From Filosporella fistucella (lineage: Eukaryota > Ascomycota > Leotiomycetes > Helotiales), in NCBI GenBank assembly GCA_030077755.1, contig JAQJZZ010000017.1, positions 744,001 to 808,000 on the forward strand: a DNA stretch of 64,000 nt, given 5' to 3'. The translations under genes were made by a program, and so were the position numbers. Within the stretch, counting starts at the first letter, position 1, and the number at the start of each line of letters is the position of its first letter. This document shows positions 2,931-46,907 of this stretch, one piece after another. Below the pieces are notes generated by a model. The model searched no databases and was not told where the DNA came from. It was given only the letters and a program-made list of their open reading frames with translations.

Positions 2931-3065
2931 GGCCGTTTGGCGGAGTGGTTATCGCGTAAGTTTCGCCCTTCTCAAGGCCCAAAAAATAAATGACTAACAA
3001 TCCTCACAGGTCAGACTTGAAATCTGATTCCTTCGGGAGCGTAGGTTCAAATCCTGCAGCGGTCG
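2931..3065 (+). tRNA. tRNA-Ser(UGA) with a spliceosomal-like intron between positions 25 and 26
   Basis: Acceptor stem 2931-2937 pairs 7 of 7 (with G.U pairs) with 3058-3064; G3065 is the discriminator. The D stem is GCG/CGC at 2940-2942 and 2953-2955. The anticodon stem TCAGA/TCTGA (3011-3015, 3023-3027) encloses loop CTTGAAA with anticodon TGA at 3018-3020. A class II variable arm TTCC/GGGA (3028-3040) and T arm GTAGG/CCTGC with loop TTCAAAT (B box) follow. Removing 2956-3009 leaves an 81-nt class II tRNA. A run of ten T at 3068-3077 suits RNA polymerase III termination. There is no intron at the canonical site 3' of the anticodon. Confidence 0.88.
2956..3009 (+). other. 54-nt spliceosomal-type intron inside the tRNA-Ser gene
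   Basis: The insert begins GTAAGT, contains TGACTAAC at 2991-2998 (perfect fungal branch-site core) and ends CACAG at 3005-3009, with branch-to-acceptor spacing of roughly a dozen bases. Length and signals match the ordinary mRNA introns of this window. It lies between the D arm and base 26, whereas nuclear tRNA introns cut by the tRNA endonuclease lie at 37/38. Because G occurs at both 2956 and 3010, the junction can slide by one base without changing the mature tRNA. Confidence 0.8.
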
Positions 3066-3067
3066 TC

Positions 3068-3077
3068 TTTTTTTTTT
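3068..3077 (+). terminator. Oligo-T RNA polymerase III terminator of the tRNA gene
   Basis: Ten consecutive T residues begin two bases after the tRNA discriminator, followed by further T runs to about 3090. This is the normal form of a Pol III terminator. Confidence 0.8.
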
Positions 3078-24206: not shown

Positions 24207-27200
24207 TCAAATCGCTCCCAAGCCTCCCACAAAATCTCTAATGAACCCCTCCGCAGCAATCCCATCAACCAAAATCTCAGGCGCAAACAGCCCGATATCG
24301 AGTTCTGAAGTATTAGCGTGGAAGCGGAGTTCGATATCAATTGCAGGCTGGATTGATAATTAGTATGGAATCTATAATGACGAGAAACAGAAAGGAGTGA
24401 AGGAAAGAAGGGGAAAGTGAAGATAACATACCACATAAGCAACTTCCTCTCTAAGCTCCATACCCTTATTCCTCTCCATCGCCACCCTCTCTTTCTTCTC
24501 TCCTGGTCCTCTCACAGGAATCCACTCTTCTTCTCCTGTGGGAGTCTCATCTCCAGTATCCTTAAGTATGTTTACCCAACACCCTACTTTCACACCCGTC
24601 CACTTATGTATCTCTTCCAAACTGGCATTGACCATCTCCTTACTCCCGATCATACCGAGATCTCTTTGTATTTCTCTCGCTATATCAAGTGTATCCCTTT
24701 GGAGTGGCCGAGAGATGAAGAGAGGAAGGAGATTAAGTGTTGGTGAAGCAAGCGAAGAGAGATCTGTGCCGAAAGGGGCGCGGTTGGAGAGGTACACGCC
24801 CAGAATGACATGATCTATGTCATTATTCTCGCTTCCTTGGTTGCTTGACTTGGGGTGACTGAGTAGATGAGTAGCGTAAAGTTTTGACAACAAAGCTAAG
24901 AAGAGCGCATCCACGGCTATGCCATTATTTTTTGCGAGATGTTTTATTGGTGGAATTTTCATACCCGGGTTGTATATTTCGGTACGGATATCTGTGCTTA
25001 TGTTGGTCTTTGATGTGCTGTGGCGACTAGGCGATGTGGAAGCTGAGAGATAATGCTTCCACTTCTGTTCCGTATTTATCGAAGCAGCAATGGAATGTGT
25101 GACGAAGTTCTTGAAGGTGGACGTCGAATGTTGAAGTGCTTGTCCCTTGTAAAGTCCCTGTAGCTCATCGATCAAGATTGGGAGACTGACTCCATCATAA
25201 AGCGCATGGTGAATGACGATTTTCAATATTGTGGGAGGACCATCTGATTCCTCGACCACCAGGTTGATGGGTGGCAGTTTCAAATCCTTCCTCGCTTTTC
25301 TGGTAAATGGATCCTCGTTTCCAATGCGGTAGATAATATCATTCGCAGGGCTCTTGAAAATTATTTGCATGACATTGGAGTCTTTCTCAGTGAAGCCAGT
25401 GCGCAGGATATCATGTCTCTCGAGCAGCATTTTCCACGCAGCCTCTAGTCTTTTCTTATCAAGCTGGTTATGAAGCGCATAAGTGAAAGTCTGATAGAAC
25501 ATTCCACCCTGTGATACCTGCCAGTGACGAATCATGTACAACTCTCCAGCAGTAGCAGGTAAAACACATTGGACTTCGCCAATTTCTTGTTCGAGCTTAG
25601 CCAGCTCTGCCGAAAAATCTAATTTCAAAAGAGCGTTTTGAATGATGGCATCTTCGTCGAAAGCTTCAGTCGAGTCTGGTGTGGAATCCTGAGCGGCCTT
25701 TCCCATCGCCGAAATAGTTTGCACTCTCAAGATATCCGAGACTGACAATTGGATTCCATGGGTTCGAAGCAAAGCAGGCAACTTGAGAACCAGAATAGAA
25801 TCAAGACCTAGATGGAAAATCGTCGAGTCTTTTTGTATCTTCTCCTCTTCTACACCCGATATATCATGAAGGGCTTTTCGAATCTTGATTTCCGTATCTG
25901 ACCATTCTGCTTCTACCTCTCTCTCGATTTCGCGAGTGCGTTGTTTTGGATGGTCATTCAGCACAATGAACTTCGGTAATCCACATACAGAAATACCATC
26001 GCTGTCAGAGACAATAGTCTGAGCCTTCGTATTTGAGACGATTTGCTCCAGAACCGTATCTAGAGCATCAATTATTCCCTTTGTCTGAGCCGCATTTCTC
26101 GCAACGGCTTTACAAGCCGTAGTCCAAGAGAGATGTTCATCATTCAAAACTTCCATCTCGACACAGACAGGGAACTCGACATCGGAGACACCATAAACGG
26201 ACTCATACAGCGCCTCTTCATTTTTAGTGCTGCGACGACCTTGATAAATGAATAGGGTATCAAAGAGGGTCGTATCTCGTTTTCCAGACTGTTCTTGGCG
26301 AGAAGCAAGAGCATATGCCTGCGCTGTTCCGAGTGGAAAATGCTGATACTGGCGTGTCGTGTCGCTCATTTCTTGCATGTACCTCAGCATATCGCCGATG
26401 CTCCCATGAAGAACCGATCGTACAGCCACGGTATTCATTAGAGGGAACATGACCTCCGCAGCTTCTTCTGTGTCCCGACAAGAGAGAACAGAGCCGAAGA
26501 CAACATCGAGCTGGCCCATGAGTTGTGAGAGAACCAGTGCCCAACATGTTTGACCGAGTGTTTGCAGCGTGATTCTAGAAGATCTGCACAGTGCTTCTAT
26601 ATCTCGTAATTTGACTCTTGATTTTCTTTCTGCTCTTGTAGTCGTGTTTGGGTTTTCGTTTTCGGATAATTTTCTCTTGGGGAACGTGGCCGAAGGCAAA
26701 TTCGACAGAGTGGTCTTCCAGAATTTCTTCGCATCATCCGTGGTAGATTGGAAGACCTGCTCCAAGAACGGCATAAATCCTGGTCTTGGACAGGAATTTC
26801 CAAGATATGCTCTCTGAATATCTTCATGTATAGAACGCAGCGAAGTGCCGTCGTAAAGAGCATGTGAGATGGCGATGACAAAATATTTTTCTCTGCCTGC
26901 TGAGACGAATTTCATCTGGAGCAGTCCATTGTTTGATGCCCTCGAGATTGCCTCAGATTTTAATTCTTCCATGAACGCCTCGAAGCGTTGCTCTTCAGAT
27001 AAAGTGACTTGAGATATTTCCCGTTGATCCTGTTGACGATGGATGATTTGAGCGTAGCTCACAGCTGATTTCGGATCATCAATCTCCACGAATGTCGTGC
27101 GAAGGATAGGAGACTGTTTAATCACTGTTTGAATTGCTCTCATCAGTCTCTCCACATCGATGCCCTGACTCAATTTGAAACCATCCACATTAAAGTATCT

Positions 27201-30200
27201 GGTGTAACCGGAATTGATCATCTCGTTGACCATACTTTGCTGCAAAGGTGTAGCCGGCAGAATCGCTTCAATATCTTGCGGAACTTTGGTTTTGCTGTCA
27301 AGAAACTTTGTCAAAGCTTGACTCATATCTTCCAGAGAGTTCGTATTCTTGACTTGGTTGACTGATCCCTTGGACGAAACACTGACAGCCATTTTTGAAA
27401 TGGTCTGGCTTTTTATGATGACGCTGACGGCAAGCTCAATATTTCTCTTTCTCAGCCTTGAAGATAATTTGATGACATCGATGCTGTCCAGCCCCAGTTC
27501 GAAGATTGAAGAGTTGCCATGAATAGAGCCCTCAGGTACGTTTGCCAAGGTCGAGATTTCAGATCTGATGATTTGAGCCTGTTCTGTCCAGGTGAATGGC
27601 TCATCGGCGGGGTCGATAAGATTAATGCCCTCATCATGGGTGACGCCCATCACATCCTCGTCGCCTTCCAACCCTCCATCAATCACATTCTCCGCCGAAC
27701 TCTCGATTGTGTCGAGTAATAAGGCTTTAAATCGAACCAGTAACTCTGAAGCCTCCTCCTCAGTAATCACATTCCCTTGTGCAACAATAACAACTTCCAA
27801 CTTCTCACTACCAGGACTAAGCGTAGCCTCAAACGCTAAAGGGTAATCCGCGACAACTTCTCCCTCCACCTCCCTCCAAACTCCATCTGCAAACGCCTCA
27901 TCTCCAGCCTCTGGCCTCTGAAACACGAATAGAGCGTCGAAAAGGCCCTGTCCAGTTTTGGCAGGGCTCCATTTTTGGATCTCTTTCAGAGCAGTATTTT
28001 GGAAATCCTGCATTTGCATGTTGAACTCATGACATTCCGTAATGAGTGAACTGGCTTTGGACCTAGCTTTGATAGTGATATGGAATGGAATGGTATTGAA
28101 GAGTGGCCCAATAACTTTGTCTGCGCCTTCGAAATCAATTGATCGTCCAGATGTGACGATGCCGATAGTCAGATTAGAAGAGCTGATATTCTGCAGGACC
28201 GATACCCAGGTAGCTTGAATGAGAGCTTGTGGTGTAACACTCAACTTTTTGCGTAAGTTATCGAAGCCAGTCAGGTTGTCGATGGTTCTTGATACTTTGA
28301 TACCTTTTGGAGATGTGGATTTGTTTATTGAAAGTTGACTTGACGACCAACCTTTGAGATGTGATACCCAGAATTCCTCTGCACCGGGTATTTTGGCAAG
28401 TGGGCCATGAGATAGCGAAGATGTGAATGGTGGTCCGTAATCGATCGACGGAACTCCTTTGTATTCATCAACAACACAACGAAGGAGTGCGGTCAAACTA
28501 TTCCCATCATAAAGCCCATGGAACATGCAGAGGTAGACAGAGTCGTCTCTGATTGCGAAAGAGTAAGGGTTCTTGAGGGCAACTGATTTTTCAGCTGTGT
28601 CATACTCAATGCTCGAAGCCTTATGAGCGTGTTTCAGAACCACTTGGGCGAATCCATCATCTGTAGCCACGAACTTTGTTCGTAAAACCTGGATGTTGGT
28701 GACCAATTTTTCCCAAACCGTCATCAATTTACAATTATCAATGCCCCCATCGAGATGGAAGTGGAATTTGTTGAAGTAGAGCGGCAGATCACTTTCCAAG
28801 AAACGATATATCATGCCCTCTTGTACGGGTGTACAAGGAATGACCGCCTCCACATCCGAACTCTCGATACCAAGCTCTGCACAAATTCCAACAATATGTT
28901 TCTGAGAGTATGCAGCAATATATTGGGATGCCGCAAATACAGCATTTTCTGTGTCGGAATCAGTAGCCACACCTTCAAGGAGAGCAGTGACGAGTCGTCC
29001 TATTGAGGGGTTGTTTTTCACGATCGAGAGCTTTGCATTATCGAGGCCTGCGTTCTGCAAATTACGTGAGAAGCCAATGATGGATATCGAATCGAGTCCC
29101 AGCTCAAAGATATTTGATCCTCTTGTCAACGCTGATACGTCGACTTGAATTACAGCAGCAATGATCTCCACAATTTTCTTCTCTTTCCCAGACCATTGTC
29201 TATCATCATGCACAGCTTGGCTCAACTGCTGCAAATCTTCGATGCTGAGATCATTGTACATCGCAGCAAGTTGCTTTGAATCTGCCTTATTATTCGCGTT
29301 TAGTGGAAGTGCCTTGATAGGAACAAAATGTGTCGGAACCATGTACCCAGGGAGTCTCGACTTGCAAGCGTCTCTGATCATGGGAATCAAACCTCGGCCA
29401 TCTTCTGGACCTGAAGATGAGACGAAGAATGACGCAAGCTGTTCTTTCTGCTGATTAGCATGCTTAAGAACCAAAGTCACAACTTCCTGGATCTCATTCA
29501 TCCCTTTCTTGATGACCTCATTGATCTCGCTCAATTCCAGTCGCTGACCACGAAGCTTGACCTGATCATCTGCACGACCAAGAAAGATGAAGCTACCATC
29601 ATGCAGGATACGAACCAGATCTCCAGTCCGATAAACTCTCTCGTTGAATGCTTTCAGAGTTGGGAATCTTTCTTCTGTCAGATCTGCCCGATTCAAATAC
29701 CCTTTACCAACTAGCTTTCCGGAGACACAAAGTTCTCCAATACCACCTCGAAGGACAGGCAGTTCGGTGCCAGGCTGAAGCACGAAAGAACCTACGTTGA
29801 TGTATGCTGGTCCGATGTTCGCCGGCTTTCCATTCTGCGGAACTCGGCAGTACATAGTGCATCCAATCGTTGCTTCAGTAGGGCCATATCCATTATATAT
29901 AACGGCATGCTTTCCCCAAACATCCAGGATCTCTTGCTTTAGCTGCTCACCACCTGTGATGAAAGCGCCTCTGCACAAAGAGGGGACATCGTCAGGATGA
30001 AGTGTGCGAGCCAGACTGGGTGTGAGATCGATATGTGTGATTGCCAGGCGTCGAATTGCGCCGGGTATGTCTTCGAAGATCAGATCCCGTGGAGCCGAGG
30101 CGACGCATATACCGACACTCCAACTCCAGAACTGTTCCATGACACTGACATCGAAATGAAACGAAGCAAATTGAAGATATTTCGAGTCATCGTCCCAATG

Positions 30201-33200
30201 ATTGGCAAATAATTTTGAGAACGCTAGCATGAACTGGACCGTATTTTCATGAGTGATCAGGCAACCCTTGGGCGTGCCAGTAGTACCCGAAGTGTAGAGA
30301 CAATAAGAGACATCTTGCGGGTCTACTTCTCGTTCCAGTGAAGGTTTATCAGAAGATAATGTGTCGAGAGCACCTGCTGAGTCCAAAAGAACGACTTCCT
30401 TCTCTAGGAGTGGCTGCAAATTCTCGGCTGGTTTCCCAGCACTTAGTACCAGCTTCGCGTTGGAGTCCTCAACAATATATTTGAGCCGTTGTGCAGGAGC
30501 GTTGGGATCAAGTGCCACGAATGCACATCCCGCTTTCAGAATACCGATGGTTGCAAAGGAGGCTTGAGGACATTTGTCGAAGCAAATTGCGATGATGTCG
30601 CCGGGAACCATATTTCTCTGCAGGAGAAGATGTGCAACTTTATTTGCTTCTTGATCAAGCTCTTTGTAGCTCCATGTTTCGCTATGGAAAGTATCCGCCT
30701 TCAAATCGGATGCAAACTCCAAGGCTGTCTTTCCGGGCCAGGTCTTTGCGCCTCTTTCTACGAATTCATGGAGAAGTGTGACTGGACCTGGTAAAACTCT
30801 TTCTTCGGGTGCTGTAATGGACAGTAGATCGGTCTCGGAATCGGGAGCCACGCCACAATGATTTTGAGGATTGTCGAGAGTGTCAAGAAGTAACGCATCA
30901 TATTGTTTTAGGAGTAACTCTGCATGCTTTGCGGGGATAAGATCGAGTCTAAATGTAATCCGGAGAGTAATCTTGTCACCAGCAGAGGGCTGCACTTCTA
31001 AAGAGACAGCATAATCCACGGAAGCTTCCTCGCGGACAATTTTCCACGGCAATTTGATTCCGTCTTCGTGGTTGGGAACCTTTTGGTATGCGAAAAGGGT
31101 GTCGAACATTTTTCCTTCAGGGAACCCAGCCCACTTCTGTATACAAGTAAGAGGCGTGAATTGATGTTTGTGAAATGATGCATTGGAGTTCATAGTACGC
31201 TCTAAAAGTTCCGCATTTGTGCCTGAGATAACGCATCGAACGGGCAACGTGACAATACTAGGAAACGCTGTACTATCCGCGTGGTCTTCGATAGATCTTC
31301 CAGACAAAGTCATTCCGAATGTTGTGGAGGCTTCGCCGGTATATGCGGAGAGTAGACGTGCCCAAGCAGCTTGAGCAGCGGCTTGCATGGTGACACCACT
31401 CGCCCTACATTTTTCATCAAGCTCCGAAGCCAATGCCCTGGATGATAATTCGATGACTGAACTCGAGATATCATTGACTCGAAGTGGTGTCATATCTGGG
31501 AAGTGGTTTCGAACAATCTTGTTCTCTTCCCTTTGCCAGAATAATTCTTTTGCGGCAACGTTATCTTGGCTGTCGCAGAGAATTGCACCAAGCAGAGTTG
31601 TGATTTGGGGGCGACTACCGACAGGCCTGGAGTAGTAAGATTTTGCGACATCAGAGAGTAACAACTGGATCGATTGAGCATCATAAAGTGCATGATGGGC
31701 TGTGAATTGAATGAATCTACTTCCATCCTCCTCGTAGTTCTTCAGAGTCCAAGGCTGGCGAAGGAGGGAATCGGGAGTTGCAAATTCATATCCGATATTT
31801 AAGCCCTTTTCTGACCAAGGAAGAGTAAATGACTTCTCTCCATATGTTACCATGACAAATGGATATTTTGCATCTTCAGTTGCCGCGAATCCGGTTCTGA
31901 GCATTTCATTGTGTTGGCAAACAATTGCCCAGGCATCTCGAAGTTTTGAGACTGAAACATCCGGGGCAAGTTCAAACCACATGCTATTGACATAATCTTT
32001 GCCTCCAGAATGTAATGTTTGAGCGAGCATACCCTGCTGAACAGCTGTACACGGTCTAATAGCTTCGATGGACTCCGAAATCAGGCCAGACTTCTCACAA
32101 ATCTTGTCTCGGTATTGTTTATCGAATGTAATAAAATCAAATTGAGCGTCTTGAGGGGAGAGCACTTCATTTTGTGAGAGGAAAGTGCCCAGCTGGGAAA
32201 TTGTCGGGTTGTGGAGGATGTCGCTTGCTGATATACTGTAGCCTTGCTTACGTAGGATGGTGGCAATTTGCACAGTGCTGATACTGTCCAAACCTAATCG
32301 AAATATGCTTATTTCTCGCCCAATCTTGTGTTTTGGGACATCAGTAAAAGATGAGATGATATCTCGAATATCGAGCTCTTGCGGAGACGATGGTTTTGAC
32401 GACTGCCTGTCGTCTGAGGTTTCCTCCTCTGACTGCTCGCTGTCCAGCTTCGCAAGGATTTGCTCTTTCATAGAAGCAGATAAGATCTGCCTTCTCGGGT
32501 TTGTTAATGCATCATGCAGTCTCTGTTCAAATGCCTTAAGCAGGCTTTCTGAATCCTGGTCGGAGAAAATGGAAGTATATGAATGTAAAACAATATGAAG
32601 GGTATCATCGCTGCGCCTTGGTACAATCTCGCAAACAAGTGGGAAATCCATAGCGCCACTATCATTTAAAACAGTCCATATTGATGAATCGAGATCTCTC
32701 TGAGCTTGCTGTAAAATGAAAAGGGTATCAAAAAGACGTAAGCCGTCGGGGCTTAATTTGGACTGTATTTGGCGTAATGGAGTTAAGTGGAATGGTAGAG
32801 CATCTGCGTTGAGAGCTTGCAGCTTTCTAAATGCCTCCAAATAAGATATGTTGTGGAGATTTTGCAATCGAGTAGGTATGGTATTGAAACATGGGGCTAC
32901 TAATCGCTCAACGCTGTTGACTGGAACGATCCGGCCACTCACGACATTTCCAAAGCAGACATCCGTCTGCTGAAATCTTTCGGACAAAATTGAAGCCCAA
33001 ATCGTGTGGCATACCGCAAGTAGAGAGGCTTCATGTATCTTGATTTTGTCCTCGATCCATTTCAGAGGTGTGCCAATAACGGTACGCTGAATCCTCGTTC
33101 TGGTCTGTACTTTATTCTGCTCTTCGGAAACTTGCTTGTTGGTGTTGTGGAACCTCGTTGGTCTCACATCCCTGAGAATTTGAGCCCAGAAGTTTTCTGA

Positions 33201-36200
33201 TGCCTCTATATTTGTAGAGATCATGTTCTGCAAGAACGGCGCAAAAGAGACTGAGCGAGGTAGTGACAGGCCTTGATATAAAGATTCAACCTCCTCATAC
33301 AGCACTGACAGAGCTACCCCATCGTATAGAGCATGGTGCATGGCGATTCTCAAACTGCTGAAGCCCGTCGATTCCACTACGTCGATTGTATATGGTGGAT
33401 TATATTCGCCTAAAGGTTGTTTCAGCTCAGAACAGACAGCCTTCCCGAATTTAAACTCAAAGTCTTTCAGCACCACTTGAACGAAGGGATTTCTTGGTAA
33501 ATCTGTGCTCACGAAACATGTTCGTAGTATTTCGTGTCTTCGGGCCATTTCCTGCCAACAACTTTCTAGCTTCTCAATGTTACCGTTGATCCGAAGCAAG
33601 ACTTCGTTGTCATAAAGTTTCTCTGAGGAAGACTCCGCTGCTGAAAGCATTGCCTCTTGAAGCGGGGTACATGGATAAATGCTCTCTATAGGTATGCCAT
33701 TATTCTGAAATCGTTCTTTGATCGACTGTTGGAAAACAGCATCAAACATGCTGTCGAATGTGTGAGTCGGAACTTGGCTTGACTCCTTTGCCTCGCCATT
33801 CTTAGAGAGGAGTCTCTCTGCCAATCTGACAACCGAAGAAAACTTGAGAATGTCCGAAATTTCAGCGTGGTGATTTGTCCTTTGGACAATATTCCTGGCC
33901 AAAGCTATGGCGGAGATGGAATCGATTCCCAGTGCGTAAAGTGATGTTTCTGGGTGTATTTCCTGTACGGGAACCTTCGCAACCATAGCCACTGCCTCCG
34001 CAATGCTTGCTTCCAGCTCAGTCCAGTTGTGACCATCTGTTGACTTTGACGCCTGAGATACCGAATCTAGATACGTGACGTCGAGCGATTGAAATATTTT
34101 AGCAAGCCGTCTTTTGTCAATCTTCCCCTGCATCGTCGAGGGTAATTTTGAGATAGGAATGAGAGCAGAAGGTACCATATAGGAGGGTAACGCGATCTCG
34201 ATGTTCTTGTATAGTGCTGAAAGAGTCGTCGAGGCCGGCGGAAGAACGTTGATATCATCCGACAAATTGTGAGCGGGTGCCCAGAAACACACAAGTCGCT
34301 GAGAATTGTCACCTACTCCAATGACCAACGTAATACAGTCTTTGACCTCTCTATATTTGAGCATGATGCTGGTGATTTCTCCAAGTTCGACTCTCTGACC
34401 CCGAATCTTGACCTGGTCATCCTTCCGTCCAGTGAAAGCAAGTGACCCATCAGGCAATAATCTGCCGAAGTCACCACTGCGATAGAGGCGACCGAACCTT
34501 GGATGCTCGATTATCTTGCCCTCATTTTGTGATGAATCCATATATCCCCGGAAAACTTGTGAGCCACCGAAGCAGAACTCTCCCACTCCGCCGCGAGGTA
34601 CAAGGGAGAAATCTGGGCCGGGATTCAAGACAAATGCCGAGGTGTTGGTGAAAGGGGGACCTATATTATTGATTGCATCGAAGGCTGTTACCAGTGGTTT
34701 GACCGTACAAATGTTGGTGGTCTCACTCGGGCCATAGCCCTGCCAAAGTCCCCGATCAGCCCAGGCATTGAACACTTTCGGGGTGACAGCTTCCCCTGCG
34801 GTGACAAGAAACTCGACACTAGGCACGTTTTTCGGGTCAACCAATGCTGCAACTGTTGGCGTCAAGCTCAAATGTGTGACATTCAACAGTCGGATAGCAT
34901 TTTCAATATCACGAAATAATACGTCCTTGGTCGCTGAACAAAGGCACCCACCTGTTCTCCAAGCAAAGAATATTTCGAATACAGAGACATCGAATGCTTG
35001 AGAGCAAGACTGGAGGAAACGAGATCTCTCAGTGGTAGGGTAGAGGTCCTGTAGGACGTCTAGATTGCTCAACAGATTTCCACGTGTAACCATGACTCCC
35101 TTCGGAGTGCCTGTACTTCCGGAAGTGAATACACAGTATGATAGATTGTTCGGCAACGGTGGATTCAGAAGATTATCTGATGGCAAAGTTGAAAAGTCCA
35201 GCTCATCCAAGTAAGTTACCCGAGCAGATTTGATCATCTTGAAAAAATTGCGTGAAGCTGTTGATGCCACGACGAATCGAACGTTCGCCTCCTCTAATAT
35301 GTATTGAAATCGCTCTGAAGGCACGTCTGGAGTAAGTGGGAGATATCCAGCACCCACTTTTGCAGATGCCAGAATCGATGCATAGAGATCCACACTCTTC
35401 TCCATGCATATGCAAACCAATTCATCAGGAAGAACTCCCAATTCGGAAAGATGATGCCCGATTTTGTTGGCGCGAGCATTTAGCTCAGAGTATGAAGCTC
35501 GATGCAGCTGTAATGTCTCCCCTTCGATCGAAGCAGCAAAGTCAACAGCTGGCCTCTCTGGGTCTTCTAAAGCTATCCTTTCGACCGGAGACGAAAGCGT
35601 ATGGCCCTTCAAGGTAGTAATTGGACATTCGTTCTCGATAGAAAGGGTGTCGTAGCTCAAATTACCATATGCCGATTTGGTGGGAGCTGATGGCCCATCA
35701 ATAATAGCACGAACGAGTTTCTCTAGTTGTAGGAGCATTGTATCGACTTGGAATGCTGGAAACAAGGATTGTTGATAGTTAGCCTTTAGTTCAACGTTGC
35801 CTGGGCCAGGAATGATTTCCAGAGTCAGATTAAACTCAAGATTATCGACCCCGTCGAGCAGGGAAACATGCTCCCTCTGGTGGCTGTAACTGTGGAGAGT
35901 CTGCTGCCAAATGAGAAGAGTGTCGAATAAGGGTTGGCGTGAATGGAGGCCACTACAAGACTTGATGTCACGAAGAGGAAGGATGCTGTTCTCCAGATGT
36001 TTTCTGTTAATTGAATTGAGCATTTGCACGAGATCATTGAGTTTTGGTGTTGATGACACATCAATCCGGATAGGAAGAGTGGTGAGGCATGGCCCTACGA
36101 TATCTTCAATTCCCGTGATTGGTAACGTTCGCCCAGAGAAGACTGTACCGAAGCAGACATCAGATGCGCCAAGGTATGAGCCGAGTAGAAGGGTATAGGC

Positions 36201-38789
36201 AGCCTGGAACAATGATTGTGGGCTTACCGACAACTCCTTCGAAGCTGCCTCTACTTTTGAAGTGGGTATTGATGTTTGTAATCTTGCAACGGCAAGCCCA
36301 GCCGGAGGCGCTTTTCCAGTATGAAAGCTTGGCATCGACAGGATGTCTAGATATGAAAGATGATCTTTCCAGTATTCTTTGAGCTCCCGATCATTCAAAT
36401 CAAGTGTCCCATCCGCGTATGCATCAACGAGATCGAGAAACGGTGGACGATTTGGTAAATCGTTTCCCCTCAGTAAGCTATCCAGGTCATCGAGGAGAAG
36501 TTCAAGCGACCACGCATCATACAAAGCATGATGAACATGCATTAATAGATGAATTCCGGATTGAGATACAGTCAACTGGATTCTGAGGGGACGGTGAAGC
36601 GACGTGTCTTTTGCCTGAGCGAACTCAAAGTCGAGCTTCTCGACTCTCTCAATCTGTGACGCTGCTAGATCTTGCCATATTATTTGAACAAATCCTGCAG
36701 GCTCTTGTGATTCAGCAAAACCAGTTCTTAAGATTGGATTGAATTGTGCAAGTTGTCGAATTATCGATTCTACATGCTCGATATCTGTAATTCCGGCGAG
36801 TCCGATCTCCACCCAATTTCTGTAGGCTGTCTGATCGATGGCTGTCTCCGATAACATCGCTGCCTGCAGCGGTGTACATATTGTTGTGATTTCAACATCT
36901 TTGGCTTGGCCGTTTAGGGCTATGGAATCCATTCGCACTGCATTCCTGGTTTTGGATACTGACGAGTCGATGCTCAGGTTCTTGCAAGCCGCCACGAGTG
37001 ATTTCAGAGATTCAGCCTTCAATACACTCAGCGTTGTAACGTTGAATCCCTGCGATCGTAGTCTGGAAGCTATTCGTATTGCAACGAGCGAGTCTACTCC
37101 AGCAGCAGCGAGACGCGTCTTCGACGAAAAGTGTCCCAATATATCGACTAGGGTTGCTCTGACTCTCTTCTCTGTGTCAGTCACGACTTCGCTATCATGC
37201 TCCTCTTCGCCGCGTGCATTCAGGTAGTCTGACTCCAATTTTCTCTTGTCCACTTTCCCAGATGGCATGTACGGAAACTTTGGAAGTAGCACGATTTCAC
37301 TTGGGACCATGAAAGTTGGAAGCCACTTGGAGGATGTTTTCATCACTTGATCCGGCCGAATGTTCTCATCTTCAGCCAGAGCAAATACCACCAAAGCGCT
37401 GCCAATAATGACAGCAGATACTGTTTTCACTCCTGGATGCTTGTATGCAGCTTCTTCAATCTCACCAAGCTCAACTCGTTGACCTCGAAGCTTCACCTGA
37501 CCGCTGCTGATTCGGCCATGCATCTCGATTGTGCCATCCTCTAATTGTCGTGCTTTATCTCCTGTTCGGTAGTACATTCTGCCCTCGAAATTCACGAAAG
37601 CTGCTTTATTCTGGTCTTCCCTGTTTAGGTAGCCTCGAGCCAGTTGTGGCCCTCCGAGGATGAGTTCTCCAATCTCCCCAATAGGAATGAATTTGAGATT
37701 GGCAGCATCGCTAGCGGTTTTTGAAGCTTCTGCTATAAATGTAGAAACAGTATCGAAGGGGATTCCAATGTTTCCGGGTTTCGTATTTGCTGGCATTTTT
37801 GGATACACTGTACAATGAATTGCTGCCTCCGTTGGTCCATACATGCCATACAGCATATTTGACTTTGTGTCAGACCCTCCAAACTCCTCCACAATAGGAG
37901 TTGTAAGCATTTCTCCAATCGTCAGGAGAAGCTTTAGCCCAGGAGCATTCGATCGCTTGTGGAGGAGTGAACCGGCAACCGTCGGTGTAAGTTCTGCAGC
38001 ATCCACTTCCAATTCATTGATTTTCCCAGGGAGATCATCAACAAGCTCGCTCTTGTTGCATGCAACCAGACTACACCCGCGGACAAGAGGAAAGAAGATC
38101 TCAAACACCGAAACGTCAAAGGAGGAGGACGCAAACTGGAGAAATCGCTTGAATTGAGGAATGTGCCTCTCGTGGGCAAGCAGAGATTGGGATGCTGCCA
38201 GATGGCTGACAGCAACTCCTTTTGGAGTGCCGCTTGATCCGGATGTGTACATCACATATGCAAGGTCGTCCGGCGTGGGATCATGTGATCTTCCCCCTTT
38301 TGGAGTTGTCGCTTGTTCGATGCTGGGAAATTCATCAACAATTATGATAGCTGGACCATTTTCCCATGTAACCGCATCCTTGAAACTTGAAGTTGTGATA
38401 ATGACATTTGCTGAAACATCACCAACAACAAATTTGATGCGTTCTGTTGGTGCATCGAGATTGATTGGACAAAAAGCTCCTCCTGAATGGAGAATCGCCA
38501 GCTGTGATATGTAAAGTCCAGCAGATTGTGGCACTAGCACTGGTATGATATGCTGAGCAGAAGATAAATTGTTTCTAGACTCTGATGCTAGACAATCATT
38601 TATCCTTGCCTCTAATGACACAACACATGAATGGACTGTTTCGTAGCTATATTGTTGTCTCCTTCCATTGCTGGTGAAATCGATTGCGCAGGACTCGCGG
38701 TGTTGATCCCATTGTATTAAGTCATGGAGAAGTTGGGGACCTTCCAACAAGCTGGGTGGATCATTGAGAATAGAAAGTCTCGCCATCAT
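24207..38789 (-). CDS. Ferrichrome-type siderophore nonribosomal peptide synthetase (SidC/NPS2-like)
   Basis: Two exons, 38789-24432 and 24347-24207 (intron GTATGT...ATCCAG), give 4,832 residues. Domain order read from motifs is A-T-C-A-T-C-T-C-A-T-C-T-C-T-C. A-domain cores: YTSGSSGTPKG (~180), FTSGSTGTPKG (~1,220), YTSGTTGTPKG (~2,830). Carrier sites: GVDSL ~565, GIDSIS ~1,623, GLDSIS ~2,168 and ~3,232, GLDSID ~3,768, GLDSIL ~4,330. C domains: HHALYDAWS ~756, HHALYDG ~1,816, HHALYDAQS ~2,366, FHGLYDG ~3,428, SHALYDG ~3,976, HHALYDG ~4,530. Three A domains, trailing T-C repeats and a terminal C domain, with no thioesterase, are the hallmark of ferrichrome synthetases, which cyclise three N5-acyl-N5-hydroxyornithines with small amino acids. 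The product is probably ferricrocin-like. The ORF start is the MMARL ATG pair. Confidence 0.92.
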
Positions 38790-40818
38790 CGGCTTGTTGC
38801 TGACTTTCAAGGGTGGGTTGTTTCGACGAAGCTCATACTTGAAAACGAAAACCGAAGGAAATCTTGATTTTATCGAGGGGAGAATTGAGCTGCTTTCAGG
38901 TGAACTATTTACAATTCCAAATCCAGTAGTGGCGAGCGGATATCAAAAAATGGAACTGGAAGTCGACGATAGATAGGAACTCACGTGCTCAGGGGGGTTC
39001 GGGTACTTGTAGGATATGATTAGAAATAGGAATGATGTGAGTGGTGAGAAATGTTGCGATGCAAATGAATCTGGCACTGCGGACTGCAGGTATTTCTTCT
39101 TCTTTGCTTATTGGTGGTGCATGGCGTTGTGAACAGAAACGTGGTGGCAGGTGCAATCAGATAGCCTGGATAGCATCGTAAAGATTGTTGGGCAAGCGGA
39201 GATGGCTCTATATTCCTTGATTCGTGACGTATCGCAGCCATTTCTCGATCGGGTATGAGGCGGAAACGGGAAAATGCCATCTGAGTAGTTTTACGCTGTT
39301 CTGGTCAGGCCAGGTACGGAGTAGAGCTAGCTAATCAGAGAATGCAGACACATAGAAATGCGAATTTGACATGACAAGTTGAGTCACGAAAACATATGGA
39401 GACAATTGCTTTTGCGGTTGCGGCCAAGTCAGCTGGTGCAAGTGATGGAGAACAGAAAGATTGATGAGAGGGTTGGAACGGGAACTGGAATGGCTGACAG
39501 CCCGAGTCCAGAGACACGGAGAAAATCCGGGATAACAGCTCGCTTGGGGGAAAGTTAGATAGGAAAGGTGGGGTCGGTGTCTCGAGCAAGCTTGTACGGT
39601 GGCCGGAAAATGCTTATGTGACAATTAATTAGACCGAAGACAACTTCTCTTTGCTCCTCTTCCATCCCGCTTCTCGCGCTTCATCTTCAACAGATTTTCT
39701 ATTCTCAATACACATGACCTAATAATATCCACATCGTCTACAACTCAAGGAAACAAGCAAGCGGACTAAAGCAAATTATGCTATCGCATGAAGCTATTCC
39801 CGGTCTGCGATTCCTTATGCCGCAATTGCTAACATCTCAAGCCTTGGCCCGGCCGCCTCGTCGTTGTCGTTCGCTGCCGTCCCTCCGCCCCATCCACATC
39901 ATTCTCCTAGCCCTGCAGTAGAACAGGCAAGGAAGATTCTTCACCTGCCATCTTCAGATCTTCACAATCTTATCAGATCGTCCCAATCAGATCATCAGAT
40001 TGAGAGCCAAGCAAATACTGACGCTCAATCCGGTTTCGGGAAAACTTGAGAAGACGACGATCCTCTTTCCCATCAACGCATTCGACACTTGCCATATTCA
40101 TCACGCCTCCAAACCGACGGGTTGGCTGCAGCCTGCAGGTCATCAATTGCTCCGTAATTGTGAGGCGTGTGGGAACGGCAGTTGCTGTACGAGGTTCTCC
40201 ATGAAATCATGCAAGGCGTCCTCTATCCGTAGCCCTCGGCTTGACGACGGTTCAACCCGCAACGCCAGCACCCAATGGTTGTTGAGGATGGAATGCTGTA
40301 TTATTTGAACAATGGACTATGGAATATCTCACACTGAACGAAAATGGCTCTTCGAATACGGTGTCACTGTCGAGAGTTCAATGGTCACAATGCCGTCCAT
40401 TCATAATGGTATGGATTGAACATCGGACAACTCCCACTATCTACACACCATCAAGTGCGATGTCGATTTTGGATTCTGAGAGTCACTGGAGCCAAGTCCA
40501 TCGGTGAACCACTGCTAGTGCCGGCCCCAGGGCGCCACTATCGTTGTTTAACGTCGTCCAGGCAAGTTGATCACTACCGAGGTGAGCTAAACTACCCCAC
40601 AAGGGACTTTTATGCACAGTGACGGTGAGTCTGAATTGCCTGTGCCGATTTGAACAGGTAGGGATAGAATTTTACCACACAGGATGTGCTCATTATTGTT
40701 GGGGATCAGTCATTGGCTTGCCGTCTTGGCTGAGAGTCGTATCTTCAAATCTGATATCGTTTGTTGCAACTGATTTTGCAGCATAAATTTCTCGTTTTGA
40801 AATGTCCCCAAACCTCAA
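38790..40818. promoter_or_regulatory. Divergent NRPS/ABC-transporter control region
   Basis: About 2 kb between the divergent starts. It holds one exact GATA-repressor motif (39970-39978) and two 8-of-9 matches (39156-39164 and 40749-40757). From about 39800 to 40040 one plus frame is protein-like (SSLGPAASSLSFAAVPPPHP, then AVEQARKILHLPSSDLHNLI) but ends at a stop. Later fragments lie in shifted frames with several stops, so this may be a decayed gene or an unusual leader. Confidence 0.5.
39970..39978 (-). promoter_or_regulatory. Iron-responsive GATA factor site (ATCWGATAA), exact
   Basis: TTATCAGAT on the plus strand is the complement of ATCTGATAA, the consensus bound by fungal siderophore repressors of the SreA/SRE/Urbs1 family. 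It lies between the NRPS and ABC genes, about 1.2 kb from the NRPS start and 0.85 kb from the ABC start. Confidence 0.5.
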
Positions 40819-43800
40819 ATGACACCCATGGTGATGGAAGAGGATGGAGAGTCGAAGGGATGGCGGACGACACTCAATCTTGTTCGTATGGTGCCTTGGA
40901 GAGGAGTCTTAAAGAATAATGGATATTCCTACTTCTCTCTATTCAGACCTTTACAAGACCTTCAGTCGCGGTTTCTACTACTTAGTGGAGTGGTTCTGGC
41001 CATCGTGGCAGGAGCACCATTGCCCATAATTGGAGTGATATTTGCGAAAATTATCGACTCGTTCCCCCCTTCGGAAGATGAAGTTCATGAAAGAATAACA
41101 CAGCTTCTTGGTGTCGGTATGTGCTTGTATTCCTGTTCCTGAGTACCCATCCTCTGACTCGTTGAAGCAACTGCATATCTGGTGGTAACGTGGGGATGGA
41201 GCTTTTGCTGGGGCGTCATCGGCGCTCGAATATCTCGGGGATTACGAACGCAGATGGTCGATAGGGCTTTAGGACTTGACCAAACCTACTATGAAACGCA
41301 ATGTCCAGATGTGAGAAATCTTCCAAACATCATAGGATGAAGCTCACAGGTCCCAGATCACCACCCGCTTAACTGTAGATGCTCAGACGGTTCAAGCTGG
41401 GACTGCCGAGAAGGTTGGCTTCTTCATACAGTCGTGCAGCTACTTTCTAGTCTCATTCATCGTTGGATTTATTTTGAATGCCAAACTTACAGGTATTCTT
41501 TTTGCCGCTGTCATTCCCTCGATGGCCTTGGTTGTTGTGACTGGGACTTCGGTATTGAACCATTTTGCCAAAGAGGCCTCGCAGAGCACATCAGCCGCAG
41601 CATCAATTGCTGAAGGAGCTATCAAAGCAGTTCAGGTTGTTCAAGCATTCGATGCGTTTGAGACTCTGACGGCTGATCATAAGAGCCATCTGACGCGTGC
41701 TATGAGGGTCGGAGTCAAAAAGGCAATCACAAGTGCTGTGTTACTAGGAAGTGTGTTCTTCATCGCGTAAGTCTCAGAAGTCAATGCCACGATTCCCTCT
41801 GACAAAACACAGATACGCAGCAAATGCACTAGCTTTCTGGCAAGGGTCTCGGATTATCAGAGATGATTCATCTCAAGGAAGTGCCGGAACAGTATACGCA
41901 ATTGTATTTTTGATTCTAGATGCTTCGTTTGTTATCGGCCAAGCTGGGCCTCTGATTCAGTCATTTTCGCAAGCATCTTCGGCCGGGAGCCGAATATTGA
42001 ACCTCATAGACCATCCCAGAATCCCGATCGATGTCTATCAAAAAGACGGCATTGAGGCAGATGATGATACTTTCGGGCCTGGCAAAGAAATAGCTCTCAA
42101 GAATGTCAAATTCGCATATCCAGCTCGATCTATGGAAATGGTGCTCGACGATATCAACATCTCGATCAAGACCGGATCGACAGTGGGAATTGTTGGCGCC
42201 TCTGGAAGTGGAAAGTCGACTATTGCTGCTTTGCTTTTCCGGCTCTACGACCCCTCCGCAGGTACCATCAATGTCGACGACAATTCATTATCCGAGTTCA
42301 ACCTATCCAGTCTCAGAAGGCAAATGGCACTTGTAGATCAAGATCCTGCTGTTTTTTCGGGCACCATTTATTCCAATATCAAGGATGGCTACAAAGGATC
42401 AGAAATCTCGGAAGATGAAATGAGAGGAAAATGTGTCAAAGCCGCCAAAGCTGCGGATGCATGGTCTTACATTCGTCTACTTCCGAATGGTATGGATACA
42501 AAACTCGGTGAGCCATCCGGAACCAAGCTCTCGGGTGGTCAAAAGCAGCGTCTATGTTTGGCTCGAGCCTTGGTCGGGGATCCCTCACTGCTGGTTCTTG
42601 ACGAGGCAACAAGTGCTTTGGACACTATCAGCGAGGCATCAATTTTGACCGCATTGGGTACATCAAGGTCTATGGGACATCGGACTACCGTCATGATAGC
42701 TCATCGCCTTGCATCAGTCAGATCTGCAGACAAAATTATCGTTATGGGAAAAGGAAAGGTCCTAGAGCAAGGAAATCATGAGTCTTTGATGGCACATGAA
42801 GATGGTGCTTATCGGCAATTGATTGAGGCACAGGAGTTAACTTCAGACAGCGACTCGGACTCACCCATCGAGGAAAAGACTGAACTGGATGTTGTCCAAT
42901 CCTCGCAATCGGCTGAAGGAATCACTGCAACAGTTACCTCGAGTGAAGACCTAGAAAAGCGACCTAGTCTTGGCACTTTAACGATCATTCGAAGGTGCCT
43001 TGCCCTGAGTCGATCTCGAGTTTTCTTCACGCTTCTGGCGCTGGTGGGTTCTCTAATCACTGGCGCCTTGATTCTGGGCGAATCAATAATATTTGGCCAT
43101 CTGGTGACTTTGCTGAACGGTACTGTTCCATCTGGCCAAGTCAACTTCTTCTGCTTGATGTTCTTTGTGGTCTCTCTGGCAGCGTTATTCGGCTATACCA
43201 TTTCTGGATCATGCTATGGTCTTGTATCAGAGCATTTGGTGCTCCAAACCAGAGATATTTCCTTGCGTACCATTCTCCGACAGGACATGGAATGGTTTCT
43301 TCAACCGGGACGGTCGACTTCGGCTCTGACCTCTGTCATCAGCATGGATGCTGGCCATCTCAGTGGCTTATCTGGAGTCATTATTGGCACTGTTGTTTCT
43401 GCACTTATCTCTGTTGTGGGAGGAGCAATCTTGGCACATGTTATCGCCTGGAAAATTGCAATAGTTCTTTTTGCCACATCCCCAATCGTCGTTGCTGCTG
43501 GGTTCCTTCGACTTCGTGTGCTTGCAAGACTCGAAGAAAAGAACCAGCAGGCCTATACAGAAGCTGCGTCACTCGCAACAGAAGCGTGCTCATCGATTCG
43601 CACAATTGCTGTTCTTGGGACCGAACGAGAGACGTCGCGGAAATTCAACGATGCAGTTGACAAGCACAAAGCGCAAACTTTCAAGCAGACAGCATACGGG
43701 AATTTCATCCTTGCGTTCGCACTATCAATCACGTAAGGATTGTTTCCATTTTGTTCGAATTTCGCTAACATCTCACAGCTATTTTGTCTATGCGTTAGCG

Positions 43801-44889
43801 TATTGGTGGGGTGCAAAACAAGTCCGAGAGGGCCACTACTCCAGCCTGCAATTCTTCATCGTACTTCCCGCCATTCTTTTCTCCGCGCAAGCTGCAGGTC
43901 AGATCTTCAGCCTTGCTCCCGACATTGGACGAGCAAAAGGAGCTGCTGAGAGAGTGTTTGCTCTCCACGACCAGAAACCAACCATCGACATAGCCTTCAA
44001 TAAATCCTCAACGCCATCAACTCAATCTATAGGAATTGGAAAATCACTACCGACTGGAAGTATTAGATTCGAAAATGTCAATCTAGCATATCGCACCCGT
44101 ATGGATTCTCCAGTCTTCAGTAACCTAAATCTGAACATCAAAGCCGGAGAGACTGTTGCTCTCGTCGGTCGATCTGGCGCAGGCAAGACCTCTGTCATTT
44201 CCCTCATCGAACGATTTTACGATCCAACTTCAGGCTCGATTCTTCTAGATGGCATAGATGTCAAATCTGTCCCTGTCTCCCAACATCGAGCCAGAATAAG
44301 TCTTGTGGCACAAGATCCGGATTTATTTTCTGGGACTGTGGCATTTAATGTGGGACTTGGGGCTAGACCTGGGCATGCTGCAAGTAGAGAGGAAGTAATC
44401 GATGCTTGTAAAGCGGTAGGCATACATGACTTTATCAATGGACTGCCAGATGGATACGAGACGTAAGTTTATGTCAATTCAAGTTCGAGGCTGGCACTGA
44501 CCATGTGAAGACAATGCGGCAATAATGGCTCCCAACTTTCAGGCGGACAGAAACAACGAGTCGCCATCGCTCGAGCATATATCCGTAATCCCGAAATTCT
44601 GCTGCTCGACGAAGCTACCTCTGCTCTGGGTATATTTGCCTCTATAATCAACAGAACTTTGCTAATGATGTTAGACTCCCATTCGGAAGCCCAAATCCAA
44701 GACGCTATCACAGCAGCGTCTCGCAAACTTACTACGATCATGATCGCACATCGTTTGACAAGTGTTCAACGGGCAGATCGTATACTGGTGTTTGATAAGG
44801 GACAGGTCGTGGAAGAGGGACGACATGAAGAGTTGATGAGAGGTGGAGGTATATATGAAATGATGGTCAGGGCACAGAGTCTTGGGTGA
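40819..44889 (+). CDS. Full-size ABC-B (MDR-type) transporter of the siderophore locus
   Basis: Seven exons, 40819-41116, 41168-41310, 41357-41766, 41813-43732, 43779-44462, 44511-44629 and 44675-44889, give 1,262 residues with phase kept throughout. The layout is TMD-NBD-TMD-NBD. NBD1 has Walker A GASGSGKS, signature LSGGQKQR and Walker B LLVLDEATSALD. NBD2 has GRSGAGKT, LSGGQKQR and ILLLDEATSALD, so both ATP sites look intact. The first TMD begins after an N-terminal cytosolic segment (about residue 50). It is divergent from the NRPS and next to the SidA gene, so transport of the siderophore, a precursor, or a breakdown product is likely. The direction and the membrane (plasma or internal) are not shown by sequence. 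Confidence 0.88.
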
Positions 44890-45652: not shown

Positions 45653-46907
45653 AAGCTCTTGGCAGAAAGCGGAGACGAAGAAAATCCTCGGCGTCATCAT
45701 TTTTTGCTTATTCTCGTGAAAGCCATTCTCTACGGTTGTCTATAATGACTCTTAGGACGATATAGAACGACCAAAGATGCAAATGAGTCGTATAGCCCTC
45801 GGCAATCAGCAAAAGAAGATATGATTAGATCCATGGCGTGGAGAATCAGAAGTAATTCTTTGCATGTGAGCATGGTATGAACAAGGGGAAGAGGGGTACA
45901 GCCCGATCGTGGATCATGATCAAACGAAACACTTGCGTCACTTCCAGCTGCGAGGAAAAACTCTGCTTCTTTTGCACTGCTCGAGAGCTTTCCCACTCGC
46001 GTTCTTCTTCCCTGTACTCGCAGTAGTACATTTGGAACAGCTGATGTCTGCAGGTCCGTCTCTTCAGCATGCACTATCATTACCACGCACCTCAACCAGT
46101 CCATGTCTATCGTTCACCTCGGTGGAGATTGCTAAATTGGACCGGGATAATATCAATGTCGTATATACGCAACTGTAGCCCAATCACCGTTGCGTAGAAT
46201 CATACCTCTTAACCTTTCAAAGAGAAATTCAAATCTGTCTTCTCTCCTTTCAACCGCATACGAAGCTTCTCTATGCACAAAACATTCAAATAACGCAATC
46301 CATCTTATCAAAATCCTCTCGGCAGTCACCAACCAATCCAAGTTAGCGAAAGACATTCTGCTCAAATACACCAACTTGGCCTTCAATCACCCACAGAAAA
46401 AACGGCTGCACAGAAAACACCGCCATAAACGCGCCAGAAAACCAGCTCTTCATCTGCATTTACTCGGTCATCTCGCCGTATTCTCATCAACGAATAAACG
46501 ACTTCTCAAATCCGTTTCGTCATCCACACAACTGAAATCGAAGACAAGTCCAATAGGAGAAGCGCGATTTCACATCTGGGACCCCCGCGCTACGGGAGTG
46601 CGGTAGGAAGCGTTATACTTTCTGCGTTGGCCGTGTATATTTACGGGCTGGGAGCTTTGTTTGGGTTTGGCAAAAGAAAGAGAACGGCAGACGACTTCCT
46701 TTTTGCGACTGGTCATAAGTTGAATGCTTGAGGAACGTGGTACTGCAGTCGACTCTCAAGAATTTGGGATTCTAGGAATTCGTTTATCTTCGGCTTTACA
46801 GTGCTTGCCCACTACTTTGTACAACCACTTACTCTGCTTTGAGAGTCACGTTACTTGTCACATTTTCACCAACAAATTGATTTCTGAGAAAGAGAAAAAT
46901 ATTCAAA

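Follow-up and report, generated by a model that had tools for sequence, protein, structure and literature searches.

We analyzed a stretch of 64,000 nucleotides (nt) of the Filosporella fistucella genome (assembly GCA_030077755.1, contig JAQJZZ010000017.1, positions 744,001 to 808,000; the whole stretch is referred to here as the window), which contains a tRNA-Ser(UGA) gene interrupted by an insert resembling a spliceosomal intron. In the genome that we searched (45.8 Mb, 19 contigs), the window corresponds to C15:744001-808000. The gene lies on the plus strand at 2931-3065 of the window and matched the Rfam tRNA model with 37.1 bits (gathering threshold 29). Exon 1 (2931-2955) comprises positions 1-25 of the tRNA, namely the 5' strand of the acceptor stem and the D arm with the A box. 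It is followed at 25/26 by a 54-nt GT-AG intron of spliceosomal type (2956-3009), in which the branch-point motif TGACTAAC occupies 2991-2998 and the predicted branch A (2997) lies 12 nt from the 3' end of the intron. Exon 2 (3010-3065) holds position 26, the anticodon arm (UGA), the long variable arm, the T arm with the B box, the 3' strand of the acceptor stem and G73. On the same strand, a TATA-like element, TATAATTT (2886-2893), fitting at 8/8 positions, is located 45 nt 5' of the mature start, and a run of ten T residues (T10; 3068-3077), the probable terminator of RNA polymerase III (Pol III), is located two bases 3' of the gene. Intron positions are our own counts in standard tRNA numbering.

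When 2956-3009 was removed, an 81-nt class II tRNA with the anticodon UGA was obtained. ARAGORN identified this spliced form as tRNA-Ser(tga) and located the junction between nt 25 and 26, and 20/20 pairs in the acceptor, D, anticodon and T stems were standard, with no mispair. The unspliced gene was miscalled as Glu(ctc) with an intron, or was not called at all under bacterial settings. Thus, two claims of a sequence-only reading of this locus held, namely that a clean class II tRNA-Ser is recovered only after removal of 54 nt, and that the insert is located at 25/26, and so not at 37/38 as a canonical tRNA intron would be. Because GT is repeated at the junction, the borders of the insert can slide by 0, 1 or 2 nt, and GT-AG ends are obtained only at slide 0. 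The GTAAGT start, TGACTAAC and the CACAG end described in that reading were present at the borders defined by the structure, and the T10 was found where it had been placed.

Intron signals of the insert and of mRNA introns

To gather introns of mRNA type, we applied reading-frame criteria and a motif score to 255 kb of the same genome (62 stretches), which yielded 94 candidates. Candidates with a score of ≥11.7 and a length of ≤100 nt, excluding L086, which overlaps the window, formed a reference set of 34 introns. These were 43-98 nt long (median, 52.5 nt), with the branch A 9-18 nt from the 3' end. The length of the window insert, its GT...AG ends with GTAAGT and its branch distance all fall within the criteria for U2-type introns. 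The signal score of the insert was 24.04, whereas the mRNA introns, each scored with itself left out, had a mean of 19.77 and a maximum of 24.15. Only 1/34 scored as high, and none of 50000 mononucleotide shuffles of the insert reached its score. As the reference set was partly chosen by motif, the score indicates that the insert resembles good introns but does not rank it among them without bias. The earlier proposal that the insert bears the mRNA intron signals of this genome is thereby supported: it outscored 33/34 reference introns.

Both elongator tRNA-Met genes found are interrupted

A pattern for the D arm and anticodon of elongator tRNA-Met (eMet), searched genome-wide with ≤3 mismatches, matched two places only, at C13:1719246-1719402 and C4:243644-243804. 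Each gene carries its own canonical intron and a second, GT-AG intron in the variable loop at 46/47, of 50 nt in the C13 gene (AGG/GTAAGT...CTAAC...TTAG/TC, where slashes mark the borders) and 49 nt in the C4 gene. We take both genes to be eMet on the basis of the anticodon loop CTCATA, the stem TTGGT/TCCAA and likeness to the yeast elongator tRNA-Met. The isotypes that ARAGORN assigned to the spliced genes (Ile, Gln and others) were wrong because the canonical intron was placed elsewhere. Further, our custom scorer, which charges for intron removal, gave a higher value to the unspliced (4.1) than to the spliced (2.9) reading of the C13 gene; we preferred the spliced reading because it is common to the C4 gene. 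The T-arm pattern (≤3 mismatches) matched five places, which were both eMet genes, the Lys gene L063, L057 and L126, the last of which combines a T arm of the eMet/L063 type with a Lys-like anticodon arm; there was no further Met gene among them. Neither the D-arm/anticodon nor the T-arm pattern detected an uninterrupted elongator Met gene at ≤3 mismatches, although a strongly diverged one could escape.

The two GT-AG introns of the eMet genes were equal in 29/51 aligned columns (57%; mean of shuffles, 51%; 95th percentile, 56%). They have thus largely diverged, yet GTAAG, CTAAC and TAG are kept in both. The remainder of the two genes, canonical introns included, was equal at 92/112 positions.

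Interrupted tRNA-Cys, tRNA-Arg, tRNA-Tyr and tRNA-His genes

GT-AG introns were also found in tRNA-Cys(GCA) (C15:2033899-2034037; 56 nt at 53/54), tRNA-Arg(CCG) (C7:326689-326827; 48 nt at 13/14), tRNA-Tyr(GUA) (C12:1367802-1367936, minus strand; 50 nt at 24/25) and tRNA-His(GUG) (C18:385130-385284; 58 nt at 12/13). The Cys gene also matched Rfam. Second introns of 11, 19, 10 and 26 nt, respectively, were placed by ARAGORN at or a few bases from 37/38, and all six sister genes of the window gene appear to contain a 37/38 intron as well. At least seven tRNA genes are thus interrupted by GT-AG introns (48-58 nt in the six sister genes) at six positions: 12/13, 13/14, 24/25, 25/26, 46/47 and 53/54.

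These four genes were detected with gapped patterns followed by a scan in which every GT-AG candidate with a branch-like motif was spliced out before ARAGORN was run. The variable-loop pattern gave 22 matches, two of which were the eMet genes; the 20 others, of which 19 were examined by both Rfam and the splice scan and the last by the scan alone, included a single tRNA (Cys). The D-arm pattern gave 40 matches, one of them the window gene, and the splice scan identified three tRNAs (Arg, Tyr and His) among the remaining 39. The scan restored a cloverleaf in 4/59 regions, compared with 0/59 reversed regions and 0/1180 resampled ones (20 Markov resamplings). In the restored tRNAs, one mispair and one G-U pair occurred in the anticodon stem of His and one mispair in the D stem of Tyr. 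Empty sites were present for two of the introns: the His junction TGGTG/TAATGG corresponds to TGGTGTAATGG in the paralogue L058, and the Arg junction TGGCCT/AATGG corresponds to TGGCCTAATGG in the Arg(UCG) gene L070.

A wider splice scan (139 partly overlapping sources, 316239 bases, 679 candidate introns) recovered the Ser gene, both eMet genes and the Cys gene, some with alternative borders. Its calls at L001 and L064 were spurious, as the stretch removed started beyond the limits of an ordinary tRNA gene and extended across the 5' end of that gene. L064 (C13:1596301-1596387) folds poorly in the acceptor stem only, and two other tRNA-like sequences, L068 (C14:2021380-2021538) and L069 (C7:717180-717308), have a poor fold; these three are possibly pseudogenes or contain further odd introns. 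Genome-wide, RF00005 gave at least 54 matches, 12 of which were on C8, which we take to be the mitochondrial contig, and 63/1940 first-look candidates were scored. The tRNA inventory is incomplete, and the seven interrupted genes are a lower bound that yields no rate.

Three introns in the U6 small nuclear RNA gene

The better of two matches to U6 small nuclear RNA (snRNA), and the only one found with an intact core, was on the minus strand of C7 (2968184-2968282; 46.7 bits). It is interrupted by three introns (49, 54 and 51 nt), all of the form GT...CTAAC or CTAAT...AG, whose removal joins the pieces to ...GGTCAATTTGAAACGATACAGAGAAGATTAGCATGGCCCCTG/CACTAAGGATGA/CACGCTCAATC..., followed by a T7 end. 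The borders were set by eye with the fission-yeast U6 as a guide. Upon splicing, the local alignment to the Rfam consensus improved from a score of 76 to 109, and the joined RNA has one extra base relative to the consensus at CACTAAGG. The second match (C6:601060-601162) was not used; it appears degenerate around the flanks of the ACAGAGA core and may be a pseudogene or another snRNA. Judging from the three introns in U6, this genome therefore seems already to depend on the spliceosome for processing a Pol III RNA.

The serine tRNA family

The exact D arm and variable arm of the window gene are common to six Ser genes, three with the anticodon AGA, two with GCU and one, the window gene, with UGA. 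Relative to the Ser(AGA) genes of C1 and C7, the window gene showed five two-sided compensatory pair changes and one one-sided stem change, with no mispair; relative to the Ser(AGA) gene of C16, it showed four two-sided compensatory stem changes. The compensatory changes fall in the acceptor and anticodon stems. Such pair changes without mispairs are the mark of a tRNA under structural selection.

The sequence-only reading had proposed a search for an intact tRNA-Ser(UGA) elsewhere, and the outcome was mixed. A tRNA-Ser(UGA) of another lineage was found at C3:1123424-1123520, with a canonical intron of 16 nt and no insert at 25/26. In contrast, no uninterrupted copy of the tRNA body of the window gene was detected using patterns for the variable arm (≤1 mismatch) and the D arm (≤2 mismatches). 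Together with a tRNA-Ser(CGA) that also carries a canonical intron (C16:193222-193335), the C3 gene represents a second tRNA-Ser lineage with the D arm GCCAGAGTGGTTAATGGG, which coexists with the Ser(AGA)-like body carrying UGA in the window. Patterns for the anticodon loop gave 60 matches for UGA (30 contexts read) and 88 for CGA, most of them random.

Probable transcription and splicing of the interrupted genes

In the window gene, the putative A and B boxes appeared intact (by eye, against the consensus) and occur together with the TATA-like box and T10. Among the 44 other tRNA genes, a TATA-like box of score 8 was present within 70 nt upstream in 8, compared with 2.7% of 70-nt stretches drawn at random from the window, and a box of score ≥7 was present in 29, compared with 23% of random stretches. 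The end of the Cys intron, AG/TTCGAACC, rebuilds a B-box-like sequence. Further, TTTT (T4) was found in none of the ten introns of the tRNA and U6 genes but in 15/34 mRNA introns (Fisher two-sided p = 0.009). The difference persisted when the mRNA introns were limited to ≤60 nt (10/23, p = 0.015) and when the tRNA introns were taken alone (0/7, p = 0.035); for the Ser intron by itself, the absence of T4 was uninformative, given its frequency in mRNA introns. The T4-free introns fit selection against Pol III termination.

If the interrupted genes were instead Pol II transcripts, spliced in the manner of mRNA precursors, they would join the usual substrates of the spliceosome, and an open reading frame with an aminotransferase class-V domain does end on the same strand at 2087, 844 bases upstream of the window gene. 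However, the T10 directly behind the gene, the TATA-like box at -45 and the intact A and B boxes are at odds with Pol II, as are introns that agree with avoided Pol III termination, and we consider transcription by Pol II unlikely. Of the three options offered by the sequence-only reading (a Pol III transcript cut by the spliceosome, Pol II transcription and a silent copy), the first fits best with the T10, the TATA-like box and the T4-free introns.

It is quite unlikely that the window gene is a pseudogene, silent and with an acquired intron, while the intact C3 gene supplies tRNA-Ser(UGA). According to one review (PMC4090602), insertions in the D or T arm of eukaryotic tRNA genes are mostly found in a single member of a large synonymous set, and such members are presumed to be pseudogenes. 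However, the window gene has no mispair in its 20 stem pairs, compensatory changes in the acceptor and anticodon stems, promoter boxes and a terminator. Further, both eMet genes found carry such introns and are hardly all silent; for eMet, the silent-copy option fails because no uninterrupted gene was found. These compensatory changes and interrupted eMet genes weaken it, and as an account of the whole phenomenon it is less likely than for the window gene alone.

With regard to origin only, the insert could have arrived as a mobile, introner-like element with ready splice signals, which would be compatible with spliceosomal removal. We regard this as very unlikely, as a genome search with the gene and insert (very common words skipped) revealed no second copy of the insert and, beyond the signals, no common sequence was noticed among the seven tRNA introns, of which only the two from eMet were aligned. 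Removal by the tRNA splicing endonuclease at a bulge-helix-bulge (BHB), as in archaea and Cyanidioschyzon, is extremely improbable: archaeal introns do occur at 25/26 (PMC4090602), and the best partial BHB, that of His shifted by one base, had 3/4 central and 3/4 outer pairs, but the full 4-bp central helix was found in 0/7 genes in any register, with at most 2/4 central pairs in Ser, and BHB cutting has no need of GT, CTAAC and AG at proper spacing. All six positions of the GT-AG introns lie away from the anticodon loop, the site to which the usual eukaryotic endonuclease measures, according to the same source (PMC4090602). Because the BHB is incomplete and the positions are off the anticodon loop, the spliceosome is the remaining fit.

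Several observations weigh against removal of these introns from Pol III transcripts by the spliceosome. The T4 difference was obtained with ten introns, set against a reference set that was itself selected by motif. In the Arg and His genes, the intron interrupts the A box, a possible obstacle to Pol III. In signal score, 8, 18, 24 and 19 of the 34 reference introns equaled or exceeded those of eMet C13, eMet C4, Cys and Arg, respectively; the corresponding numbers were 3 for Tyr, 5 for His and 3, 32 and 29 for the U6 introns. Most of the other introns of Pol III genes are thus ordinary in signal, and U6 introns 2 and 3 are weak. The Cys, Arg, Tyr and His genes were found by patterns requiring GTANGT or CTAAC, so that in these genes the motifs do not count as independent evidence; the cloverleaf restored by splicing had no part in the patterns. 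The gapped patterns were not enriched over backward controls (22 vs 52 matches for the variable loop, 40 vs 39 for the D arm). Copies of His (L058) and Cys (L048) without such an intron exist. Finally, in view of the second tRNA-Ser(UGA) on C3, the window gene alone need not be essential, and it may be dispensable on its own.

Recurrence gives the spliceosomal-type interpretation strong support: introns of this type interrupt seven tRNA genes, at six positions, as well as U6 of the same genome. On the signals and anatomy described above, we consider it very likely that the window gene is a functional nuclear tRNA gene and that its insert is a spliceosomal intron of the U2 type. Transcription by Pol III would be directed by the TATA-like box together with the internal A and B boxes and would end at T10. 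In the pre-tRNA, the spliceosome would recognize GUAAGU, the CUAAC branch and CAG; it would join C25 to G26, and the joined RNA would fold into the cloverleaf before its ends are processed. In the six sister genes with a 37/38 intron, the spliceosome would act first and the tRNA splicing endonuclease after it, because the endonuclease needs a folded tRNA body. In this interpretation, Pol III genes of this lineage have gained spliceosomal introns again and again (seven tRNA genes and three U6 introns). It is likely that the lineage repeatedly took such introns into nuclear tRNA genes (at least seven genes and six positions, twice inside the A box), so that the indispensable elongator tRNA-Met can be made only by way of the spliceosome, followed by the tRNA splicing endonuclease.

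Window neighborhood and searches beyond the genome

Elsewhere in the window, an NRPS-like open frame of 4856 amino acids (identified by eye) lies at 24372-38942 on the minus strand. An ABC transporter (Pfam; 41336-44510) and an L-ornithine N5-monooxygenase with one intron near 47771 (46881-48452) lie on the plus strand. Together, these three look like a hydroxamate siderophore cluster. Among the matches listed for a fragment of the monooxygenase, the top named relatives were Oculimacula, Leptodophora, Rhexocercosporidium and Cadophora (63-67% identical), all presumably members of Helotiales.

A pattern combining the Ser D arm with GTRNGT had no match in viral contigs, nor had the Ser D arm alone. 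The two matches of the combined pattern in genome contigs were in metagenome-assembled bacterial genomes (Rhodoferax and Prevotella) without a tRNA match, and we attribute them to chance. The eMet D-arm pattern matched six stretches in IMG/VR viral contigs.

Comparison with known introns in structured RNAs

In textbooks, introns of nuclear tRNA genes are the domain of one dedicated endonuclease. Such canonical introns (at 37/38, removed by endonuclease and ligase) are nuclear like those described here and apparently co-occur with them in six of the seven interrupted genes, whereas the GT-AG introns lie at other positions, carry GT-AG and branch signals and lack an anticodon-loop context. Ascomycete rRNA genes contain spliceosomal introns, likewise in a structured RNA that is not a Pol II product; there the host is rRNA made by Pol I, here tRNA. 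A full-text literature search, judged on titles and the openings of abstracts and covering few subscription papers or preprints, brought up no report that we recognized of spliceosomal introns in nuclear tRNA genes. The tRNAscan-SE 2.0 paper treats non-canonical introns for archaea and does not contain "spliceosom" (PMC8450103), and one further paper, in the part available, ascribes tRNA gene introns to archaeal-type and group I introns, not to spliceosomal ones. Annotation can miss such genes, as with the C4 eMet gene, which had no Rfam match at E 0.01, and the window gene, which ARAGORN miscalled.

Archaeal tRNA introns are known outside 37/38, including at 25/26 (PMC4090602). Like the introns described here, BHB introns of archaea and Cyanidioschyzon merolae lie outside 37/38, but they fold into a BHB, which was incomplete in 7/7 genes here. 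Closer in being eukaryotic, the tRNA introns of the Guillardia theta nucleomorph also lie outside 37/38, in the D, anticodon and T arms; their removal is reported as confirmed by reverse transcription PCR, the mechanism being unknown (PMC4090602). However, they measure 3-24 nt, whereas the introns described here measure 48-58 nt and carry signals for the branch and the splice sites.

If our interpretation is correct, these introns represent a new class among the introns of nuclear tRNA genes, and translation depends directly on the pre-mRNA splicing machinery. Splicing of Pol III pre-tRNAs would then require neither a cap nor the Pol II tail, and two splicing machines would work on one molecule. 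Intron gain could be studied in RNAs in which every position is structurally known. The nearest known counterparts are in fungi, where U6 introns have been described; as of 2017, no small structured RNAs other than U3 and U6 were known to be frequently interrupted by an intron (PMC5832005). The introns of fungal U6 snRNA and U3 small nucleolar RNA likewise combine GT-AG ends with a CTAAC-like branch in small structured RNAs, and U6 is made by Pol III, whereas the hosts here are tRNAs. The introns described here would thus extend a known class, the spliceosomal introns of Pol III RNAs, to tRNAs.
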